Source of the DNA: a virus
Strand: one strand, 5' to 3'
Virus record (IMG/VR): IMGVR_UViG_3300020193_000077
Location: 1 to 33,328 of that record
Length of the DNA stretch: 33,328 bases
The notes beneath the pieces were generated by a model. It made no database searches. It was not told the origin of the DNA and saw only the letters and a list, made by a program, of their open reading frames with translations. A program made the position numbers and the translations under genes. The number at the start of each line of letters is the position of its first letter. The first letter of the stretch is position 1. Positions 12,183 through 30,710 of the stretch are shown here, one piece after another.

Positions 12183-12553
12183 GTGACAACCAACTCTTTC
12201 CCATCAGCGCCCGTCAGCTCGTTTTTTTCCCGCTGGGAAAGGTATTGCTTACCAAGCCAAACCAGCATCGTCGTGTTGCCCTCTTCCAAGGCACGCCATT
12301 GGTGACGGCGTAAAGACATCTTGCCGCCCTCTATGCCGCTTTTATAAATCTGGCAAAACTTCTCGTCGCGCAACAAAGTTTCAACGCTACAACCGAGCCA
12401 AGCGGCGATTTCGGTCTGCGTACATTGAATGCCGGCCAGTTTTTTTACGGCCTCGTAATCAATCTCAAAGCGAGGGCGACCGCCGCCCTCCCCTTGGTGG
12501 CCTTGTTTGAGTTGGCCGGTGCGTTTGCTAATGCGTGTCTCTTTGCGTCTCAT
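12164..12553 (-). CDS. terS: Terminase small subunit (probable)
   Basis: 129 residues directly upstream of TerL and overlapping it. The N-terminus is basic (RRKETRISKRTGQLKQGHQG) and is followed by a helix-turn-helix-like block (KKLAGIQCTQTEIAAWLGCSVETLLRDE, residues ~37-64), as expected for the DNA-recognition part of small terminases. The C-terminal half (QWRALEEGNTTMLVWLGKQYL) is a phrase I know from phage small terminases/DNA-packaging helix-turn-helix proteins. The ATG overlaps the stop of the DNA methyltransferase as ATGA. Role: recognise the packaging site and deliver DNA to TerL. Confidence 0.8.
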   Translation of the reverse strand: MRRKETRISKRTGQLKQGHQGEGGGRPRFEIDYEAVKKLAGIQCTQTEIAAWLGCSVETLLRDEKFCQIYKSGIEGGKMSLRRHQWRALEEGNTTMLVWLGKQYLSQREKNELTGADGKELVVTWLPPQ

Positions 12554-13761
12554 GCCGCGGCCTTGAACCGTTCGCCGGTAGATTCAAGCATGGCCTTTTG
12601 CCCGGTAAAGTCCTCCCAGCGTTTAACGATCACATCAACGTACTTGGGGTCTAGTTCAATGATTCGGGCGATGCGTCCGTTCTTTTCGGCAGCAATAAGC
12701 GTCGTGCCGCTCCCGCCAAACGAATCCAGCACGATATCGCCGCCCTTGGTGTTGTTCAGGAGTTGGTACTCAAACAACGCCACGGGCTTCATCGTGGGGT
12801 GGTCTTCACTACGGCTTGGCCGGTCAAACCTCAGCAGCGTGGTTTGTTTGCGATCAGACGCCCACAAATGGCCAGCGCCATCTTTCCAACCATAAAGGCA
12901 CGGTTCGTGCTGCCAATGATAATCTTGCCGCCCCATGACCATGCTGTTTTTCTGCCATATTAAGCATTGACGCACCTGCCAACCCGCGTCTTTGCACGCT
13001 CCGCGAAAATTGTAGCCCTCCGAGTCACCGTGCCAAATGTAGAACACCGCTCCCGATTTCATCACCGCGTCAGCTGTTACGAAGGCGTCTCGCAGGAAGG
13101 CGCGAAACTGCTCGTCGCCCATGCTGTCGTTTTGGATAGTTAATGCGTCTTTGGTTCCGCCTGTGTACGCCACGTTATAGGGGGGGTCAGTCAGCAACAT
13201 ATCTACCCGCTGATTTCCGCATAAACGTTCCATTGCGGTCATTTCTAGGCTGGAGCCGCACATTACCCGGTGCTGCCCACACACCCATACGTCCCCAAGG
13301 CGCGTGACAGGCTCCACGGGCGGCTCTGGGGTGTCATCGGGGTTAGTTAGCCCCTCCGTCCCCGGTTCAGCCAATAGGGCGTCTATTTCGTCCGTATTGA
13401 AGCCTGTGAGGTCTAGGTCAAAGTCCAGCGCCTTCAGGTCGGCCAACTCCAGTTTGAGCATGGCCTCGTCCCACCCGGCGTTAAGGGCAAGTTTGTTGTC
13501 GGCTATGACGTAAGCCCGCTTTTGGGCGTCCGTCAGGTGGACAAGCCGAATGCAGGGGACTTCGGTTAGTTTTAGTTTGCGGGCAGCCAGTACGCGCCCG
13601 TGGCCGGCAATGATGCCATTAGCCTCGTCTACCAATACGGGGTTGGTGAACCCAAACTCGCGGATGCTCGCCGCGATTTGTGCCACCTGTGCATCGCTGT
13701 GAGTGCGGCTGTTTTTCGCAAACGGGATCAGGGTGGCAATCCCGATTTGTTCTATTTGCAC
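12550..13761 (-). CDS. ParB-domain/DNA adenine-type methyltransferase fusion
   Basis: 403 residues. Residues 1-~95 are a ParB/Srx-like domain (IPFAKNSRTHSDAQVAQI, then GIIAGHGRVLAARKL with GHGR at 53-56). Residues ~155-400 are a beta-class amino methyltransferase: catalytic DPPYN at 192-196, then the SAM-binding FGGSGTT near residue 340. The order (catalytic motif before SAM motif) defines the N4-cytosine/N6-adenine beta class; DPPY favours N6-adenine. Such fusions are common in phages and may protect DNA from restriction or mark packaging DNA. Start is a GTG at 13761. The target sequence cannot be inferred. No cognate restriction gene is visible. Confidence 0.92.
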   Translation of the reverse strand: MQIEQIGIATLIPFAKNSRTHSDAQVAQIAASIREFGFTNPVLVDEANGIIAGHGRVLAARKLKLTEVPCIRLVHLTDAQKRAYVIADNKLALNAGWDEAMLKLELADLKALDFDLDLTGFNTDEIDALLAEPGTEGLTNPDDTPEPPVEPVTRLGDVWVCGQHRVMCGSSLEMTAMERLCGNQRVDMLLTDPPYNVAYTGGTKDALTIQNDSMGDEQFRAFLRDAFVTADAVMKSGAVFYIWHGDSEGYNFRGACKDAGWQVRQCLIWQKNSMVMGRQDYHWQHEPCLYGWKDGAGHLWASDRKQTTLLRFDRPSRSEDHPTMKPVALFEYQLLNNTKGGDIVLDSFGGSGTTLIAAEKNGRIARIIELDPKYVDVIVKRWEDFTGQKAMLESTGERFKAAA

Positions 13762-15924: not shown

Positions 15925-16225
15925 TGGCATCGTCGTATAACGCATACAGATCGCGTATGGCGGTTTCTGCGTCACGGGCGACGTAATACTCGCCTCTGCC
16001 GTCAAACACGTTGCGGAAGGCTGCTTGCGCCTCGCGTAACCGACCCTTCGGCATCTTGACCTCTACCCAGCACACCCACGACTTCCCGTCTGGGAGCGTG
16101 CGAGTCACGAGTTTGTCAGGGATGCCGTGGCCCGCCTTCCCAAAGTCGGTGACCGTAAAGCCTACCTTACGGAGCGCGTCCGAAATCAGCGCGTCATTAC
16201 CGTCACGGCGGGCGGCATACCTCAT
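15902..16225 (-). CDS. VRR-NUC-type nuclease
   Basis: 107 residues, the size of a stand-alone phage VRR-NUC domain. Catalytic PD-(D/E)XK elements: GHGIPDKLV (Asp37), then WVEVKMPKGRL (Glu55 and Lys57), plus a C-terminal helix with REAQAAFRNVF. The family cleaves branched or structured DNA, so a role in resolving recombination or packaging intermediates is likely. The ATG at 16225 overlaps the upstream methyltransferase stop (ATGA). A GTG six codons earlier is also open but has no ribosome binding site. It ends inside the 3' end of the convergent glycosyltransferase gene. Confidence 0.85.
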   Translation of the reverse strand: MRYAARRDGNDALISDALRKVGFTVTDFGKAGHGIPDKLVTRTLPDGKSWVCWVEVKMPKGRLREAQAAFRNVFDGRGEYYVARDAETAIRDLYALYDDAIKPEQRR

Positions 16226-16938
16226 CGCTTTTTCAACACCCACATTTGTGGGTAGTAATACATTTCGCTAAACGTCCCGGCCTTACCATCCACCATGCGA
16301 GAAAGTTCGTCAAAGAGCGACAGGATCAACCGGCGGTCGTTCGGTTTGTTGCCCCCAAAGTGCTTGTTGAACTTGGCGGCGTAATCGGGGTTGTAGGTGC
16401 AGCTCATGTCCTCAATGACGTAATACCCGCCCGAGCGCACCCAGTTCTGGCAATGCACTACCGTTCCCACAATGTCCTCGGCAATATGGCTACCGTCGTC
16501 CACAAAGAGGTCGTAATTACGCCGCTCTACCGTGCGAGCGTCAGCAATGGTGATTTTGACATTCGGCAAGTCTTTGCAAAGATCAGCGCACTCAGGGCGT
16601 ATGTCAAACCCCTCAATGTCGCTGGCCGGTAAGTAATTCGCCCACATCCGCAAGGAAGCACCACACGCCACCCCGATCTCCCCGATCCGCAGTTGTGCGG
16701 TTCGTCGGTACGGCGTCAAGTCAGCAATCAGCTTTTCGTAGTGCTGGGTGTAACGGCGCTTGATGTTGCCTTTGTCCGAGCCGTAGAGGTCGGCAAGGCC
16801 CGTGAGCGAGACTTCCGTAAGGTCAACTTCACCTGTCTGCGGCGCGTACTCCTCGGGTTTAACGGTATCCAAGTATCGTCTAACACCTCCTCGTTCCGCG
16901 CCTCGTTGATGCACCGGATTAACCATATTTGCCACCAT
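16222..16938 (-). CDS. Sugar O-methyltransferase-like protein (MycE-type SAM methyltransferase)
   Basis: 238 residues. It carries LADLYGSDKGNIKRRYTQHYEKL (GSDKG at 53-57), a phrase characteristic of MycE-like sugar 2-O-methyltransferases and bacterial polysaccharide methyltransferases, followed by SAM motif I RIGEIGVACGASLRMW (85-99), FDIRPE and the later FVDDGSHIAED, where acidic and His residues bind metal in that family. It ends with WVLKKR. Likely substrate: a sugar hydroxyl on a glycan or nucleotide sugar. It is the second gene of the leftward block. The ATG at 16938 has an AAGG element about 10 nt upstream. Confidence 0.78.
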   Translation of the reverse strand: MVANMVNPVHQRGAERGGVRRYLDTVKPEEYAPQTGEVDLTEVSLTGLADLYGSDKGNIKRRYTQHYEKLIADLTPYRRTAQLRIGEIGVACGASLRMWANYLPASDIEGFDIRPECADLCKDLPNVKITIADARTVERRNYDLFVDDGSHIAEDIVGTVVHCQNWVRSGGYYVIEDMSCTYNPDYAAKFNKHFGGNKPNDRRLILSLFDELSRMVDGKAGTFSEMYYYPQMWVLKKR

Positions 16939-17024
16939 GTTTGATTGCCTTTTGTTCTATTTAACGGAGGAACTTGCACAATATCTTCTCTGGGCTGACT
17001 GAACTTACTCTCGGGGTATAGAGT

Positions 17025-17240
17025 TTATTTTTCAAAATATCCCGCTTTAACTGACTGTTCGTGATCTGCAATATATTGCTTGATTGACCTTGTACCACGG
17101 CGATCTCTGGTCTGAAATTGCAGCAATCGGTACGCAAGGTGATAGATGTTATCTCCACCTCTTGGTCTTCTCCCTGTATTAACTTCTATGTATTTCTTCA
17201 AAAGTTCTATGTCTATCTTAGGTTTTATCGTTTCAGCCAT
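17025..17240 (-). CDS. Small basic protein of unknown function
   Basis: 71 residues with many Lys/Arg and an RPRGGDNIYHLAYRLLQFQTRDRR centre. The ATG at 17240 has an AGGGG box 6-7 nt upstream, and the reading frame is dense. The DNA is visibly AT-richer than the surrounding late genes. No recognisable domain; a small DNA-binding or host-takeover protein is conceivable. It is the first gene of the leftward block, just below the structured intergenic region. Confidence 0.6.
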   Translation of the reverse strand: MAETIKPKIDIELLKKYIEVNTGRRPRGGDNIYHLAYRLLQFQTRDRRGTRSIKQYIADHEQSVKAGYFEK

Positions 17241-17413
17241 CTTAAACCCCTGATGCTTGGAAGCCCGGGAATGGCCCCCCTACCCCCCACTTCTGCGGAA
17301 GGTAGCGAGGCCAAGCCTATGCCCGTATAGCCACGGTTTTTAGGCCCGCTGGACTTTGGTAAGCGGTATCCAGCCCGATCCAAACGACCGGCCCTCCGCT
17401 GACAGATTTAGCC

Positions 17414-17465
17414 CATGTCAAGGGGCTGCGTGTTGGGGTGTTTGACATGACCAGAAAGGTCATGT
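17414..17465. repeat. Two overlapping inverted repeats (mutually exclusive hairpins)
   Basis: CATGTCAA (17414-17421) is complementary to TTGACATG (17442-17449), loop 20 nt. ACATGACC (17445-17452) is complementary to GGTCATGT (17458-17465), loop AGAAA. Both stems are perfect over 8 bp and share bases 17445-17449, so an RNA can form only one at a time. The 21-bp second palindrome could instead be a protein operator. Confidence 0.6.
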
Positions 17466-17523
17466 GAAGATACCGACACGCGATACAGCAATTTCAGCGT
17501 AAGACCATTCCCCCGGTCGCGTC

Positions 17524-17550
17524 AACCCCCCGTCTGGGGGGTTTTCGTTT
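17524..17550 (+). terminator. Rho-independent terminator, + strand
   Basis: Perfect 8-bp stem AACCCCCC (17524-17531), loop GTCT, GGGGGGTT (17536-17543), followed by TTCGTTT. The T-rich side faces +; on the - strand the stem is followed by a GC-rich stretch, so - termination is weaker. No + strand gene precedes it within 1.5 kb, which is unexpected. It may end a small RNA or block + transcription into the switch region. Confidence 0.75.
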
Positions 17551-17569
17551 CTGGCCCCCTATAACCGCA

Positions 17570-17752
17570 TTAGCGGCCTTTAACGGGCTTTACCAGCCCA
17601 GCCTTTACCAGCCCAGCCTTGACCTGCCACAGCCTTTGCTGCGGGATGCGCCCGTTGCGTATCCAGCGCGATACCGCTGGGGGGCTGACGCCGAATGCCC
17701 GGGCTATGCCAGCCGGGGAACCAAACTTCTTAAGTGCTTGCTGAATGTCCAT
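17570..17752 (-). CDS. Cro-like helix-turn-helix repressor
   Basis: 60 residues. The helix-turn-helix spans about residues 11-35 (SPAGIARAFGVSPPAVSRWI), then RNGRIPQQRLWQV, the pattern of Cro/YdaS-type phage repressors (GVS-PAVS-W). The C-terminus is KAGLVKAGLVKPVKGR, made by a perfect 15-bp tandem duplication in the DNA. No dimerisation domain beyond this. It lies between two divergent promoters whose spacers carry its likely operators, so it should regulate itself and the early operon. The ATG has no ribosome binding site, and the predicted transcript starts at or next to the A of the ATG. It is the only repressor gene in the window. Confidence 0.85.
   Translation of the reverse strand: MDIQQALKKFGSPAGIARAFGVSPPAVSRWIRNGRIPQQRLWQVKAGLVKAGLVKPVKGR
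17589..17618 (-). repeat. Perfect 15-bp tandem duplication in the repressor's 3' end
   Basis: Two adjacent identical copies of TTTACCAGCCCAGCC (+ strand 17589-17603 and 17604-17618) encode the repeated residues LVKAG near the end of the repressor. The reading frame is kept because the unit is 15 bp. Confidence 0.9.
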
Positions 17753-17758
17753 CGGTGT

Positions 17759-17787
17759 ATGTTAACTGCCGTTAGTTTTTTTCTCAA
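17759..17787 (-). promoter_or_regulatory. Repressor promoter, predicted leaderless
   Basis: On the - strand: -35 TTGAGA (17787-17782), spacer 17 bp, -10 TAACAT (17764-17759). The repressor ATG starts at 17752, 7 bases after the -10, so transcription should begin on or next to its A. Confidence 0.7.
17762..17775. promoter_or_regulatory. Putative operator O1 (TTAAC-TGCC-GTTAG)
   Basis: Near-perfect inverted repeat with the same arms and spacing as the second operator, one mismatch in the last base. It overlaps the -10 and spacer of the repressor promoter, so binding would shut off the repressor gene. Confidence 0.6.
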
Positions 17788-17794
17788 GGGGGTG

Positions 17795-17823
17795 TTGACA
17801 ACGCTCTTAACTTGTGTTAATAT
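17795..17823 (+). promoter_or_regulatory. Early promoter
   Basis: Perfect -35 TTGACA (17795-17800), 17-bp spacer, -10 TAATAT (17818-17823). It points at the early operon whose first gene starts at 17855 behind AGAGG. The putative operator fills the spacer and touches the -10. Confidence 0.8.
17807..17820. promoter_or_regulatory. Putative operator O2 (TTAAC-TTGT-GTTAA)
   Basis: Perfect 14-bp inverted repeat, arms TTAAC and GTTAA, in the spacer of the early promoter. Its centre is 45 bp from that of O1. Repressor binding here would block the early operon. Confidence 0.68.
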
Positions 17824-17854
17824 ACGCCCATACGCTAACCACAGAGAGGTTTGT

Positions 17855-18106
17855 ATGTCGCAGTTAATTCGCATCCCTTGGAAGTTTTACATGGATCATT
17901 ACGAGCGTGGCTTGCCAACGCCGGAAGAAGTCCGTACCACCAAGTCCCACGTTTACATCAGCGCAGACGACCCGCACCTCAATGCGCTGTGGTCTGACGC
18001 CGAGCTCTACGCGCACAAGTTTGGCCCCGATCTTTGCCCGTCTATCAAAGCTAGCGCCAAGGCCACGCTTGCCGCCATCAACAAAGTAGTTGACGGGTTG
18101 GAATAA
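17855..18106 (+). CDS. Early protein of unknown function
   Basis: 83 residues, first gene after the early promoter. The ATG has an AGAGG box 5 nt upstream. The sequence starts MSQLIRIPWKFYMDHYERGL and ends with a helix SIKASAKATLAAINKVVDGL. A phrase TKSHVYISADDPHLNALWSDA in the centre suggests a small folded domain. No family recognised. Being the first early gene, it may be a host-takeover or regulatory protein; that is inference. Confidence 0.7.
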   Translation: MSQLIRIPWKFYMDHYERGLPTPEEVRTTKSHVYISADDPHLNALWSDAELYAHKFGPDLCPSIKASAKATLAAINKVVDGLE

Positions 18107-18156
18107 CCTCGGTTAATCTATCTCACGTTGACAAACACAACACAGGAGCAACAGAA

Positions 18157-18438
18157 ATGTTCAACGTCCAACGACACATCTACGGCCTTTACTGCGAGAT
18201 GGAACTGCACTACGAGATGGACGCCGACGAGCGTGGCGCGTTCGTAGACCTCAAAGAAGTTTGGATACTCGGACACTACCCCGAGGGTTGCAATAGCAGC
18301 GCGGCGCATCGCGGCGATTACGTCAGCATCAACGCCAAGGCTGACATTGGGTACATGACGTCTGCCGAGCTTGAGGATTTAGAGGCCGCTTGCCTTGCAC
18401 ACGCCAAGGTCTGCGCTACGGATGTGGACTATGAATAA
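18157..18438 (+). CDS. Early protein of unknown function
   Basis: 93 residues behind an AGGAG box. The centre reads YCEMELHYEMDADERGAF then LKEVWILGH. Acidic overall, ending in a helix with several Cys (EDLEAACLAHAKVCATDVDYE). No known domain is recognised. Its stop overlaps the start of the following small membrane protein. The early operon continues rightward without a break. Confidence 0.7.
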   Translation: MFNVQRHIYGLYCEMELHYEMDADERGAFVDLKEVWILGHYPEGCNSSAAHRGDYVSINAKADIGYMTSAELEDLEAACLAHAKVCATDVDYE

Positions 18439-18556
18439 GCGTTCATCGGCATGGCCTGCCGTAATCGGCATCATCATTTGCTACATCATCGCCGCCGTTA
18501 TTGAACCTTGCGACGGCCACAGTTGCGCGAACGAGGTGACACATGGAGGACGATGA
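18431..18556 (+). CDS. Small single-pass membrane protein
   Basis: 41 residues: MNKRSSAWPAVIGIIICYIIAAVIEPCD, with one hydrophobic segment (about residues 8-25) followed by a short Cys-containing hydrophilic tail. The start overlaps the previous stop by 8 nt and the next gene starts inside its end. Such short membrane proteins are common in phage early operons; function unknown. Confidence 0.55.
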   Translation: MNKRSSAWPAVIGIIICYIIAAVIEPCDGHSCANEVTHGGR

Positions 18557-18674
18557 CGACAGCTGGTGGCACCAGCAGGATTTGGAAATGCAGGAGCGCG
18601 ACGAAGAAGAACGTATTGCAGCCTGCAACAAAGCATTAGACGAACTGAAGGAGTACGACGATGAAGGTGTATGA
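18543..18674 (+). CDS. Small acidic protein
   Basis: 43 residues, MEDDDDSWWHQQDLEMQERDEEERI with a helical C-terminus (ALDELKEYDDEGV). Highly acidic, like DNA-mimic or anti-host small phage proteins, but no family is recognised. It overlaps the membrane protein's 3' end by 14 nt, and its own end overlaps the ERF start by 14 nt. Confidence 0.55.
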   Translation: MEDDDDSWWHQQDLEMQERDEEERIAACNKALDELKEYDDEGV

Positions 18675-19230
18675 AAAGATCGCGGCGATTACCGCCGAGT
18701 TAAGCAAAGTCGGTATCAGCAAAGACAGCAAGAACCAGAGTCAGGGCTACAAGTTTCGCGGCATTGACCAAGTGTACGGTGCGCTATCCCCGCTGCTTGC
18801 GAAGCACGGCTTGTGCATTCTGCCCCGCGTTACGGCACGCGATGTCGTGGAGCGGCAGAACCGACAGGGTGGTGCGCTGTTCTACGTCACCCTTTCAGTA
18901 GAGTTTGATTTTGTCGCCGCCGAGGATGCGAGCAAGCATACCATCGTGACGATTGGCGAGGCGATGGACTCGGGCGACAAGGCCAGCAACAAGGCAATGA
19001 GTGCCGCGTACAAATACGCCGCGTTTCAAGCGTTCTGCATCCCGACCGAGGGCGACAATGACGCTGACGCAATGACGCACGAAGTGGCTGCACAAGACCC
19101 AGAGGTGTTGGCGCAGATCGCCGCGTGCGACAGCAAGAAGGCGCTGCGTGCGCTGCTTAACGAACTGCCTGTGCCAGCGCGTGAGCTGCACATGGATGCG
19201 TTTATGGCTCGCAGCAAGCAGGTGCAATAA
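18661..19230 (+). CDS. erf: ERF-family single-strand annealing protein
   Basis: 189 residues. The ERF core is visible: QGYKFRGIDQVYGALSPLLA (residues 28-47) with the typical FRG-D--Y, then GEAMDSGDKASNKAMSAAYKYA (98-119) and FCIPTEGDNDAD. ERF proteins anneal complementary strands and drive recombination-based circularisation of phage DNA, as in P22. An AGGAG box precedes the ATG. The stop TAA overlaps the exonuclease start (TAATG), so both are co-translated. With the SSB-like and NinB genes it forms a recombination cassette. Confidence 0.93.
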   Translation: MKVYEKIAAITAELSKVGISKDSKNQSQGYKFRGIDQVYGALSPLLAKHGLCILPRVTARDVVERQNRQGGALFYVTLSVEFDFVAAEDASKHTIVTIGEAMDSGDKASNKAMSAAYKYAAFQAFCIPTEGDNDADAMTHEVAAQDPEVLAQIAACDSKKALRALLNELPVPARELHMDAFMARSKQVQ

Positions 19231-19841
19231 TGGAACAGCGCACAGACGATTGGTTCGCAGCACGGCTTGGCAAGGTCACGGCCTCCCGGGTGGCCGATGT
19301 AATCGCTAAGACTAAAAGCGGTTACTCGGCCTCCCGCGAAAACTACATGGCTGACCTTATCGTAGAGCGGCTGACGGGCCAGAAGGCCAGCAGCTTTAGC
19401 AACGCAGCAATGGAGTGGGGGACAGAGCAGGAACCCCACGCTAGGGCCGCTTATAGCGCGTTTACAGGTGAGCTGGTGGAGGAGGTGGGCTTTATAGACC
19501 ACCCGCGTGTTGCGAACTCTGGCGCGTCCCCAGACGGTCTGGTGGGCGATGGTCTCGTAGAGATCAAATGCCCTGCGACCGCGACCCATTTAGACACGCT
19601 GCTCGCGGGTACGGTGCCGGGCAAATACATCGCACAGATGCAATGGCAAATGGCCTGCACCGGGCGCAAATGGTGTGATTTCGTGTCCTACGACCCTCGG
19701 TTGCCTGATCACCTGCGGTTGTTCGTTGAGCGTGTTGAGCGTGACGACGATTACATCCGAGCGCTGGAAGGCGAGGTCACTTTGTTTTTGGCTCAGTTGG
19801 AAGAAAAGTTAATCAAATTACAGGAGTTGAACCGTGGTTAA
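19230..19841 (+). CDS. YqaJ-family (lambda exonuclease-like) exonuclease
   Basis: 203 residues. PD-(D/E)XK hallmarks of the YqaJ fold: RLGKVTASRVADVI at the N-terminus, then GASPDGLVGDGLVEIKCP (Asp, then Glu-x-Lys) near residues 93-110, and QMQWQMACTGRKWCDFVSYDP. It resects 5' ends so that ERF can load. Overlaps ERF by one base and the next gene (SSB-like) by 8 nt, so the order exonuclease-annealer-binder is kept in one transcript. Confidence 0.93.
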   Translation: MEQRTDDWFAARLGKVTASRVADVIAKTKSGYSASRENYMADLIVERLTGQKASSFSNAAMEWGTEQEPHARAAYSAFTGELVEEVGFIDHPRVANSGASPDGLVGDGLVEIKCPATATHLDTLLAGTVPGKYIAQMQWQMACTGRKWCDFVSYDPRLPDHLRLFVERVERDDDYIRALEGEVTLFLAQLEEKLIKLQELNRG

Positions 19842-20121
19842 GCAATTTGATCCAAATATGCGTGGCGTGCTGTTTAAGAACGATAAGCAGGGTAATGACA
19901 AGCGCCCTGACTACCGTGGTTCATGCGTCATTAACAACGTGGACATAAACGTATCGGGTTGGATACAGACGAGTAAGAAAACGGGCGATAAGTTTATGTC
20001 GCTGAAGTTTGAGCCAAAGGGCGAGGGCCGTTTGTCACGCACAGGCGAACCGCAACGCACGCCGGATAAATCACCGCAACTCACCGAGGACAACTGGGCA
20101 GACGTTGACATCCCCTTCTGA
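19834..20121 (+). CDS. DUF736-like protein with SSB-type C-terminal tip (probable ssDNA-binding protein)
   Basis: 95 residues starting with GTG. The core is DPNMRGVLFKNDKQGNDKRPDYRG, then SGWIQTSKKTGDKFMSLKFEP, a compact OB-fold-like beta pattern as in phage DUF736-type proteins. The protein ends in DNWADVDIPF. The last residues, acidic then IPF, match the conserved C-terminal tip of bacterial SSB that recruits partner proteins. With ERF and YqaJ next door a ssDNA-binding role is likely. A GGAG element precedes the GTG. True OB fold was not verified. Confidence 0.75.
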   Translation: MVKQFDPNMRGVLFKNDKQGNDKRPDYRGSCVINNVDINVSGWIQTSKKTGDKFMSLKFEPKGEGRLSRTGEPQRTPDKSPQLTEDNWADVDIPF

Positions 20122-26758: not shown

Positions 26759-28693
26759 TCACGAAATAAACCACGCAAACGCATTAGAGCCGCCACCGCC
26801 TCCACCGCCGGATTGAGCGACCCATGCGAGCGATCCCGTGCCATCTGAAGCCAACACATAACCGTTGATGCCTGCCGTGTTGGGCCAAGTATAAGTGATT
26901 GATCCCGCCGAGGTAGCGGCAAGAAAGCCGACATACCCCGACGATGCGCCAATAAACCGCAATGCTGCAACATTGGCCGAGCTGATAGACGCTTGAGTGC
27001 TAGAAAGCGTCGTTACCGTGCCGGTTGTAACGAGCGCCACCGCCGCGTTGATAGACGACACCGAGGCTTGGGTCGCCGTAAGCGTGGTCACCGCTGCCGT
27101 ACCCACATTAGCCGAGGCGATAGAGGCGCTGGTTGCCGTTAGGCCCGTTACCACCGCCGTCCCGACGTTAGCCGAGGTGACAGACGCACCGGCTGCCCGC
27201 AGATCGGTGACGTTTGCTACGCCTGCGTTAGCCGAAGCCACCGAGGCTCCCGTTGCCGTGAGCGTCGTGATAACCGCTGTGCCGACATTGGCTGATGCGA
27301 CTGAGGCTTGTGTGGCCGTAAGGGTGGTAATCACCGCCACGCCCGCATTGGCCGAGGCCACCGATACGGCGTTAATATCTAGCCGGTTAGTGACCAACGT
27401 GCCAACGTTGGCCGAGGCAATGCTGGCTCCGGTAGCGGTCAGCGCCGTAATGGCTGCGGTGCCGATATTGGCCGACGCCACGCTTGCTGCCGTGGAGGTT
27501 AAGTTAGTAATCGTCCCCGTCGTAACGAGGGCGACCGCTGCATTGACCGAGGCAACCGAGGCGTTTGTCGCCGTGAGATTGGTGATAACCGCCGTGCCAA
27601 CGTTTGCCGAGGTGACCGATGCGCCTGTGGCACGCAGATCGGTGATGTTGGCAACACCGACGTTAGCAGAGGCTACCGATACGCCTGTAAGCGTGAGGCT
27701 AGTGATATTGGCGGTGCCAAGGTTAGCCGAGGCAATGCTGGCCCCTGTCGCCGTTAAATCTGTGATAACGGCTGTGCCGATGTTAGCCGAGCCGATAGAT
27801 ACCGCGCCCAGCGCACCAATGTTGGCCGACGCGATAGATGCGCCCGTTGCCGTAAAGTTGGTGACCGTGGCCGTAGTGAACAACGCAACCGCTGCGTTAA
27901 TAGACGCTACGGATGCGCTGGTTGCCGTCAGATTCGTAACAACAGCGGTGCCAACATTGGCCGAGGCAATAGAGGCCTGCGTAACGGTAAGCGTCGTAAT
28001 GACGCCGACCGTAGCGTTAGCCGAGGCTGCCGATACCGCGCCAAGATCGGTCTTGCCGGTGACGGTGAGCGTGCCACCCACCGAGAGCGCCGAGGTGATG
28101 GATACGTTGGCTTGGAAACCCGCGTTGCCCGTCACCGTCAGCGTGCCGTTAATCGTCGTGTTGCCAAACGAGTTAGCGGCGTTAATCATCTGGAACCGTG
28201 TGCCGTCGTAGACAACGACCACGATTTCACCCGAGTTGATGTCACCTGCCGCAAGGGCTAATGCGCCATCGCGGGTGACTGCTTTTGCGCCTAACGACTC
28301 AATGTTGAGCGTGACAGGGCCGGTATTTGCGCCCGCCGCCACAAAGTAAAACATTTGGCCTGTGCCGTAGGCCGCAAGAACTGGCGACATTGTGCCGGTA
28401 ATAGTGTCCACGCCAGCAATAGAGCCGATGAGCTTGGCTGCCGTGGACTGCACCTGCGACAAATTGGCTGCATCACCCGCGAGCGTACCCACCGCAAGGC
28501 CCGTGATCTTGTTGCTGCCCATCGGGATGTTGGCCGTGGGCGTCGTCTGACCGTCTTTCGTAATACAGTTCGTCAAACCTGTCGCAAGATCGGCGGTCAG
28601 GGCGTTAAACACCGTTGCGGAAATGACGGTGTTGGCAACGACAGGCTGGCCTGCCGAGTTAATGAGGAAGGTGCCGCTGCCGTTGTAGGCCAT
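26759..28693 (-). CDS. Tail fibre with ~16 short shaft repeats
   Basis: 644 residues from an ATG at 28693 behind AGGAG. Residues 1-~200 form an N-terminal domain (SGTFLINSAGQPVVANTVIS, then ITGLAVGTLAGDAANLSQVQ) typical of phage fibres. Then come about 16 tandem units, mostly 20 residues, of the form S(V/I)ASANVGTAVITTLTATGA; three are longer and carry INAAVAL or VNAAVAL. The C-terminal 60 residues (ASSGYVGFLAATSAGSITYT) end in a Gly-rich stretch and FAWFIS. The repeats should form an extended trimeric shaft. The matching DNA repeat leaves the opposite strand open for over 400 codons. Confidence 0.85.
   Translation of the reverse strand: MAYNGSGTFLINSAGQPVVANTVISATVFNALTADLATGLTNCITKDGQTTPTANIPMGSNKITGLAVGTLAGDAANLSQVQSTAAKLIGSIAGVDTITGTMSPVLAAYGTGQMFYFVAAGANTGPVTLNIESLGAKAVTRDGALALAAGDINSGEIVVVVYDGTRFQMINAANSFGNTTINGTLTVTGNAGFQANVSITSALSVGGTLTVTGKTDLGAVSAASANATVGVITTLTVTQASIASANVGTAVVTNLTATSASVASINAAVALFTTATVTNFTATGASIASANIGALGAVSIGSANIGTAVITDLTATGASIASANLGTANITSLTLTGVSVASANVGVANITDLRATGASVTSANVGTAVITNLTATNASVASVNAAVALVTTGTITNLTSTAASVASANIGTAAITALTATGASIASANVGTLVTNRLDINAVSVASANAGVAVITTLTATQASVASANVGTAVITTLTATGASVASANAGVANVTDLRAAGASVTSANVGTAVVTGLTATSASIASANVGTAAVTTLTATQASVSSINAAVALVTTGTVTTLSSTQASISSANVAALRFIGASSGYVGFLAATSAGSITYTWPNTAGINGYVLASDGTGSLAWVAQSGGGGGGGSNAFAWFIS
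26940..28060 (-). repeat. ~60-bp coding repeats of the fibre shaft
   Basis: About 16 imperfect 60-bp units, with three longer variants. The DNA carries recurring GCCGAGGC-type and GCCGTGAGC-type words on the + strand. The units are diverged, so expansion is old or selection has kept only the protein pattern. Boundaries are approximate. Confidence 0.75.
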
Positions 28694-28697
28694 CTCT

Positions 28698-30710
28698 TTA
28701 CTCCTGTGCCGTGATCGCGCCGGTTCGGCCCGCCAATTGTCCTGCAAGGGCTTGCTGGCGTCGGCGGCGTTCTATGTAAGCACGCATATTTTTTAATTCG
28801 TCTGCTGCAGGCGTTTCCACCACAGACGTTCCATCTTTCAAAAACCGAGTTTGTTCGCCTCGTAAAAGTAATAATCTTGCCAACTGATTGCGCGTTGCTT
28901 CAGGCATTCGCAATTGCGAAAACTTACGCGCCGCGCTAGTTGCGAGCGAAGCGCCGCCCGTCTGCGCCGCAGCAGCAAGATCAATCGCATCTGTTGCGGC
29001 GGCTTGATCCTCTGCGCCTGCGAGCAATCTGCCCGTCTGCGAGCCTTGGCCTGCACGCTCCACCCGCTTGAGCTCTTCTTGCTGCAAAATTGTTTTTTGA
29101 AACTTTCTAAAATCGTTTCCAAAAATAGCGCGTAATTTTCCCTGCAGTTCTGGTTCTTTATACATATTAAGCAAGCGCGTCTGACCTGCTTGCCCACCTG
29201 CCATAAGACGCAAACTGTCTACTGCGCCAACTTGAAACGCCTCCAATTCTGATGGCGTCATTTTATTGGTTAATTTTGACAGCGATTCTGAAGTTTCACC
29301 GAATGCTTTGCGACCTTGTTCCACGGCGTTTTGCAGTTCAGCGAACCCAGCGAACGTACTGCGAGCCGTAGCGTAATCAGGGGACAACGAGTCAAGTTTT
29401 TTAACCAACAGCAAACGCAACTGATCTGCGTCTGCCGCTTCGTTTTTATTGCCTTTGCGTAGCGCCGCTTCTCTTTTATCCCATAGCGAGCGTTTCAGTT
29501 GATCAGCAGACGCAAACGATAATTCGTCGCCCTCTTGTAGCTTACGCAAGTCTACTTTTTGCTCGCCTCGGCGTATTGCGCTACGTTGTGCCGCGCCTAA
29601 ATCAAGCCTAGAACGGTCAAGAATGTTTTTTAATTCCGCATCAATTGGAAATGCAACTGTTCGCAGTTTTTCATAAAGCGGGCCGGCGGCTTTTTGTTGG
29701 CGCTCGGCAAGGCTTTCTAATTCATCCTCTGCGCTGCGCGTGACGCCTGTAAAACGCTCTGCAGCTCTTGTAATTGAGGGGCCGCGTTGTTTTTGAATGC
29801 GGCGAGTTTCCCGCGCCGCCAATTCTTCCGCTGAACCGGGCAGATTACGCAGCAACCCTAGCTCTCCAGTTGTTGATCGCCCGGTAGCAGCAATTGTCGC
29901 GTCGGGGCCGAGCTTTCTTAACCGCGCTTCGGCAATGGTGATCGGATCGGCATCGCCCCTTAAGACACGGGCCTCCATATCGCGGATTAAAAGTTGCGCG
30001 AGACGTTCGCGGGCAGGTTCTATCGCGTATTTTTCTTTGATGCCCGGGGTGCGCTGGGCAATTTGGCTGCCTACCATGCCCAACCCCTTGCCAGCCACGC
30101 CAAGACCCGTGCCAAAAGCGGCATTGATTGCCGTTCGGCGTGCAACATCCTCGGCAAAATCACCGGGGGTTTCTGCTTCCGTTTCGCCAACGGCTGAAAT
30201 GGCGCTAGTGCCAACAATAGGCTTTAGGAATTGATAGCCTTTCTGCATAGCAGTTGCACCTAGACGCGGCGCACCCAGCCCTAGCGACAATGGCGCACCT
30301 ATCACGCCACCTAAAACTTCTGTTGCCATCGCTTCGCCCGGGCGTTCTTCGCGGAAACTTTCTACGCCACCGCGAAACGCTTCTCGGGCAGGTTCATACA
30401 TTTGCTCTGGGCGAACGGTCGGGGCAGGTTGCCTTGCATACCCTGCGCCTGCATACGCACCGGCCTGACCTTGAGCGGCAGCAGCGCCTGCTAGCTCGTC
30501 TGCAGCGCCCATAAAAACGCCCTGCAAACCCGTCATTAAGCGGCGTCCACCCGTTGGGAGGGCAGCGCCCGCTTCACGCGCTGGACGATCAAAGTTTGGG
30601 TTGGCTTTACGAACTTCAGCAATAACTTGCTCGTCCGTTAACCCCTCTGGCCCAGTAACCTTAAACCCTTCGCCGCTAGGCAATCTGACAATGTATTCTT
30701 GCTGTGCCAT
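28698..30710 (-). CDS. Large internal virion/ejection protein (putative)
   Basis: 670 residues. It starts EYIVRLPSGEGFKVTGPEGLTDEQ, a phrase I associate with phage internal virion proteins, then a Gly/Ala-rich block (GADELAGAAAAQGQ-like) and GVIGAPLSLGLGAPRLGATA, hydrophobic and glycine-rich, as for a membrane-crossing ejection protein. The rest is long charged helix rich in Arg, Glu and Leu (for example RFTGVTRSAEDELESLAERQ). No lytic transglycosylase motif was recognised. It follows the 505-residue protein that is probably its partner. Role in DNA ejection is inferred from composition and gene order. Confidence 0.65.
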   Translation of the reverse strand: MAQQEYIVRLPSGEGFKVTGPEGLTDEQVIAEVRKANPNFDRPAREAGAALPTGGRRLMTGLQGVFMGAADELAGAAAAQGQAGAYAGAGYARQPAPTVRPEQMYEPAREAFRGGVESFREERPGEAMATEVLGGVIGAPLSLGLGAPRLGATAMQKGYQFLKPIVGTSAISAVGETEAETPGDFAEDVARRTAINAAFGTGLGVAGKGLGMVGSQIAQRTPGIKEKYAIEPARERLAQLLIRDMEARVLRGDADPITIAEARLRKLGPDATIAATGRSTTGELGLLRNLPGSAEELAARETRRIQKQRGPSITRAAERFTGVTRSAEDELESLAERQQKAAGPLYEKLRTVAFPIDAELKNILDRSRLDLGAAQRSAIRRGEQKVDLRKLQEGDELSFASADQLKRSLWDKREAALRKGNKNEAADADQLRLLLVKKLDSLSPDYATARSTFAGFAELQNAVEQGRKAFGETSESLSKLTNKMTPSELEAFQVGAVDSLRLMAGGQAGQTRLLNMYKEPELQGKLRAIFGNDFRKFQKTILQQEELKRVERAGQGSQTGRLLAGAEDQAAATDAIDLAAAAQTGGASLATSAARKFSQLRMPEATRNQLARLLLLRGEQTRFLKDGTSVVETPAADELKNMRAYIERRRRQQALAGQLAGRTGAITAQE

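Follow-up and report, generated by a model that had tools for sequence, protein, structure and literature searches.

Positions 17753-17823 of the window (the whole analysed stretch of viral DNA, 33,328 nucleotides) most probably constitute the control region of an early regulon governed by a single repressor, which would act as a Cro-like negative autoregulator and not as part of a two-state lysogeny switch. Genes, promoters, predicted operators and RNA features of this part of the window are listed in Table 1.

According to the proposed mechanism, a Cro-type helix-turn-helix (HTH) protein would bind 14-bp palindromes, each of which takes up the downstream end of a promoter spacer and runs into the -10 element. 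Three promoters would be targeted: the repressor's own and two early ones, the second of these lying about 300 bp downstream. Upon infection, host sigma-70 polymerase would fire all three promoters. The repressor mRNA would begin at the AUG or right beside it, and the protein made from it would build up until it stops polymerase at the early promoters and restrains its own production. Negative feedback is proposed because one repressor would shut both its own and the early promoters, and no opposing second repressor was found. As a Cro-like negative-feedback device, the repressor would time the expression of the early genes; it would probably also exclude a second phage that has the same specificity, either as a by-product or as a selected function.

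Table 1. Features in and around the control region (positions refer to the window)
Feature	Position	Strand	Basis or remark
Candidate small-RNA gene: promoter with inverted repeat, three stems, terminator	17442..17550	+	3' of repressor gene, convergent
Cro-type repressor gene, 60 aa, HTH, recognition helix SPPAVSRW	17570..17752	-	Pfam, PDB profile and fold matches
Repressor-gene promoter TTGAGA-17-TAACAT	17759..17787	-	Promoter scan
Predicted operator O1 TTAACTGCCGTTAG	17762..17775	.	Overlaps repressor -10 by three bases
Early (rightward) promoter TTGACA-17-TAATAT, TG before -10	17795..17823	+	Promoter scan; kept in relatives
Predicted operator O2 TTAACTTGTGTTAA, perfect palindrome	17807..17820	.	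Overlaps early -10 by three bases
Leader hairpin AACC-ACAGAGA-GGTT	17837..17851	+	3' arm overlaps Shine-Dalgarno of first early gene
First early gene, 83 aa, unknown function, under O2	17855..18106	+	ORF; 92% identical in G003
Second early promoter TTGACG-18-TAATCT	18090..18119	+	Sequence; equivalent promoter in L027, L038
Predicted operator O3 ATAACCTCGGTTAA in second early promoter	18103..18116	.	Palindrome scan
Leader hairpins GTTG-ACAAACA-CAAC (18127-18141) and GAGCA-ACAGAAA-TGTTC (18146-18162)	18127..18162	+	Before/at second early gene start
Second early gene, 93 aa, unknown function	18157..18438	+	Followed by Erf, YqaJ exonuclease, SSB, NinB

Promoters and operators of the control region

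A promoter scan of positions 16000-20000 returned exactly two sites, the divergent promoters at 17753-17823 that a sequence-only reading of this DNA had described, and both are present exactly as noted there. By count, promoter matches are at chance level (2 found, 2.6 expected). The same reading had assigned a TTAAC-N4-GTTA(A/G) palindrome to each promoter, with centres 45 bp apart, and this was borne out; with up to one mismatch, the palindrome has 11 strand-counted matches in the window against 2.07 expected, and 11 was reached in no shuffle. Chance is untenable as an explanation of the promoters and operators because they are conserved in relatives. The placement of the palindromes inside the spacers stands in part: they do occupy the spacer ends, but they do not lie wholly inside, as the downstream arm reaches three bases into the -10 element (GTTAAtat on the plus strand and GTTAAcat on the minus strand). 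Two additional operator-like sites with one mismatch, at 19828 and 24104, have a counterpart at the same place in none of the ten relatives compared, and were taken as chance matches.

The repressor protein

By sequence, the 60-residue protein is of the Cro type found in P22, N15 and Xfaso 1, with the predicted fold agreeing. It scores 36.7 bits against PF14549 (P22_Cro; curated Pfam cut-off 30.2). A PDB search with a profile of its relatives led to Cro proteins of XPH1 (5w8y), Xfaso 1 (3bd1), N15 (2hin/6on0), P22 (1rzs) and Pfl 6 (2pij). The AlphaFold model is modest (pLDDT 71, pTM 0.48), and Foldseek placed N15 Cro (2hin/6on0) at ranks 1-4 with E values of about 0.01-0.06, not significant on their own. 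The protein also resembles YdaS (PF15943), scoring 31.7 bits, just above the Pfam cut-off of 30.0, although the operators matched to it suggest that it functions as a Cro. A CI-like repressor is not supported by these comparisons. Isolated phages gave remote Cro matches only, and plasmids two weak matches.

Operators follow the recognition helix among relatives

Five scans of viral contigs yielded 172 loci with a family match, of which 71 have non-redundant upstream DNA. According to their recognition helices, these fall into groups G1 (xPAVSR, 22 loci), G2 (xGAVSQ, 20), G3 (RAAVQL, 4) and G4 (RAAVQQ, 21), while four fit none. The G1 operator TTAAC-N4-GTTAA, with up to one mismatch, was found in 22/22 G1 loci and in no G2 locus; conversely, TTTAG-N4-CTAAA is present in 20/20 G2 loci and in 0/22 of G1, without any crossover between the groups. 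Palindromic operators matched to the recognition helix thus occur in the divergent control region of all 42 G1 and G2 loci, at least one site in each and two or more in 37; mononucleotide shuffling of the upstream regions left a site in 15 of 2100 trials. Members of a helix group share ancestry, so the 42 loci do not represent 42 independent tests.

The place of the operator relative to the ATG and the -10 is fixed in both groups, and in most of these loci the gene-proximal operator starts about 23 nt before the ATG. Operators of one genome change together, which is what a single trans-acting protein would impose. Spacing between O1 and O2 varies from 37 to 93 bp among relatives and therefore does not imply a cooperative architecture. 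Three G1 loci (L035, L041 and L044) have kept the operator on the early promoter and lost the one on the repressor promoter.

One might suppose that a host regulator binds the palindromes, or that they merely reflect promoter constraint, and that the phage protein acts elsewhere. One palindrome arm indeed doubles as part of the -10, so that some of the T/A conservation is promoter constraint. Both operators, however, change their arms from TTAAC to TTTAG in exact step with the helix that the phage encodes, among phages that share much of their backbone, and a host factor is not expected to track a phage recognition helix. We consider this explanation hardly credible, and binding by the phage repressor is preferred. 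Co-variation of helix and operator in Cro proteins was proposed earlier (Hall, LeFevre and Cordes 2005, as cited in PMC4997575); it is not new in principle, and these phages are a new instance of it.

No operator was clearly identified in G3 and G4 relatives. Inspection by eye disclosed a G3 candidate on the early promoter, (A/G)G(C/G)CT-N4-AG(C/G)CT. In G4, TTGACA-N5/6-TGTCAA is common to two overlapping promoters and was considered as an operator, but its centre varies in length. In L119-L176 (G4), face-to-face promoters overlap 5' of the repressor, each -35 lying inside the spacer of the other (AGGATAG-N5-TTGACA-N5/6-TGTCAA-N-CTATCCT).

An apparently leaderless repressor mRNA

The repressor ATG had been placed 7 nt after its -10, and this holds: six nucleotides lie between, with the A as the seventh. 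Scanning for the best -10 located it 6-8 nt before the repressor start codon in 67 of the 71 loci, and a Shine-Dalgarno-like stretch precedes the gene in none of the 71. Among the exceptions, the distance in L035 and L044 is 6 nt if TAATAT is taken as the -10, and L195 is a doubtful member of the family. This conserved distance, along with the lack of a Shine-Dalgarno in these loci, upholds the leaderless mRNA suggested previously, so that the leaderless form is well supported, with transcription expected to begin on the ATG or no more than 1-2 nt away from it.

Alternatively, the mRNA may possess a conventional leader with its true start further upstream (for example by read-through), the leaderless geometry being incidental, and the -35 is indeed a weak match in several relatives. 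The 6-8 nt distance nevertheless recurs across loci of varied sequence and holds even where the upstream DNA has been replaced, which makes a conventional leader very unlikely. The literature on leaderless phage mRNAs and on lytic phages with Cro-like repressors supplied background only.

Early genes and a third operator

The operator-promoter at 18090-18119 had been overlooked by the sequence-only reading, as had the exchanged specificities among relatives. A third site is found at the equivalent place in most of the G1 genomes scanned, with few sites elsewhere. Relative L052 has further operator-promoters, and in L005 the early promoter adjoining the repressor resembles the third operator-promoter of the window, as if early-gene cassettes move together with their own operator-promoter.

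Lifestyle and the single repressor

The tyrosine integrase family PF00589 was not detected in 21 records, and PF00239 (serine recombinase), PF00717 (S24 repressor) and PF13614 (ParA) were not detected in 23. HTH_3 signals are weak and nearly all correspond to the repressor itself, with one weak place apart from it, in G010. Four genomes, one per helix group (G005 in G1, G014 in G2, G013 in G3 and G021 in G4), have exact terminal overlaps of 114-127 bp, suggesting complete circular assemblies, though the collection classes them as linear. The scan for tyrosine integrase took in G005, G013 and G014, and those for serine recombinase, S24 repressor and ParA all four, including G021. A short-peptide pattern scan of 84,980 bacterial and archaeal species genomes confirmed no relatives of the repressor or the portal. 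Isolated phages with a related backbone are Mx8, BUCT555 and ppBjS10J-1, at roughly 27-52%. We infer that the phage is probably lytic, as the lack of the searched families and the outcome of the pattern scan suggest.

That only one repressor gene is visible, as was stated before, holds in the near-complete relatives as well. The term switch, used in the same description, does not: two opposing repressors at one control region, as in the lambda type, were not found, and near-complete genomes showed neither integrase nor plasmid maintenance of the searched families. Nothing observed would produce two stable states: both promoters carry the operator of one protein, and the searches revealed neither a second repressor nor an integrase, S24 repressor or ParA.

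The repressor might still be CI-like in role, serving, in a true lysis-lysogeny switch, a temperate phage that integrates or is maintained as a plasmid through unrecognised genes. Its gene and the early operon diverge, as they do in lambda, its mRNA appears leaderless, as known for lambda cI, and the exchanged specificities resemble heteroimmunity. Against this stand the Cro-type sequence and size of the protein, the near-complete genomes and bacterial pattern scans described above, and the repressor's own promoter, whose operator is so placed that binding should repress it and which has no apparent site for activation. We regard a lysogeny repressor as unlikely and retain Cro-like negative autoregulation.

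Module exchange between phages

The window and genome G021 (G4) share closely similar flanking genes (methyltransferase 88%, Erf 95%, coat 92%, tail 92-94%), while their repressors are only 52% identical. The opposite is observed with G003 (G1), where the repressor and first early gene are each 92% identical and the control region 82.8% at the DNA level, while Erf is absent and the other flanks are more distant from the window. Since flanking genes are common to the window and a phage of different specificity, the repressor module has evidently been exchanged, and by sequence comparison the repressor-operator module shows mosaic exchange of the kind that immunity regions undergo.

Prophage immunity is the usual explanation for classes of repressor specificity. 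Exchangeable classes in phages without recognisable lysogeny genes make it testable why a lytic phage diversifies its repressor. It is possible, although we consider it rather doubtful, that obligately lytic phages keep and exchange Cro-only modules whose mutually exclusive specificities number at least two and probably four. The modules would have been selected to control co-infecting or superinfecting relatives, together with the conserved small RNA next door, and would confer immunity without lysogeny. The family also offers, within a single scaffold, dozens of naturally occurring pairs of recognition helix and operator, along with a conserved, apparently leaderless mRNA.

Comparison with known systems

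Cro proteins of P22, N15, Xfaso 1 and Pfl 6 (PF14549) are alike to the window protein in sequence, in predicted fold and in being small HTH proteins. They are also alike in palindromic operators that overlap divergent promoters and in specificity that follows the recognition helix. In contrast to P22/N15-type Cro, the window Cro is the only repressor found, with no CI partner or integrase found; it lies divergent from the early genes, in the place of cI, and has an apparently leaderless mRNA. The lambda OR switch (CI/Cro, PRM/PR) has divergent promoters with shared operators, as does the window, and the lambda cI mRNA transcribed from PRM is leaderless, like the predicted repressor mRNA. The window differs from lambda OR in having one repressor, one operator per promoter, no apparent activation site and an unconserved operator spacing. 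The immB regions of N15, phiKO2 and PY54 encode the same Cro class in phages with non-integrating prophages, but those telomere-phage prophages have CB/CI in addition to Cro, unlike the window. Cro of phiKO2 binds only OR3 (PMC4997575).

Leader hairpins and a candidate small-RNA gene

Small hairpins recur in the early leaders, at the leader start, the Shine-Dalgarno or the start codon; their loops are of 7 nt and close to ACAGAYA. Both for these hairpins and for the small-RNA stem described below, pairing was assessed by swapping arms between relatives. Hairpin stems of at least 3 pairs are formed in 71% of distinct cases, compared to 17% after swapping (maximum 30% in 1000 swaps). A role as translational operator or mRNA stabiliser is possible.

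The candidate small-RNA gene, expected to yield an RNA of roughly 75 nt, is represented by 109 distinct sequences among the loci, and is built of a TTGACA promoter, a stem ACGC/GCGT, a middle stem, CGTCAA, and a terminator with TCGTTT. Its middle stem occurs in 30 different pairing versions, with at least 5 pairs in 65%; swapped arms reach this in 15% (at most 29% in 500 swaps). Of 158 loci, 100 contain a match to a strict text pattern for the end of the small RNA no more than 600 nt from the repressor. No Rfam match at the gathering threshold was obtained in six sources, and the phage collection gave no match to the candidate. Pairing with early leaders, judged by eye, extends over five or six bases only.

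In the window, the spacer of the small-RNA promoter (17446-17464) carries the inverted repeat CATGACC-AGAAA-GGTCATG. Its arms differ in relatives but stay symmetric around a centre of AGAAC or of about 7 nt, and the repeat does not follow the Cro group. This hints that the small-RNA promoter is bound by a different regulator, one whose DNA specificity varies.

Elsewhere in the window, a gene for a ParB-like/DNA methyltransferase fusion (12550-13761, minus strand) has no match in the ten relatives compared. A putative tail protein gene (26759-28747, minus strand) contains many repeats of a motif like ASIASANVGTAVITNLTATG.
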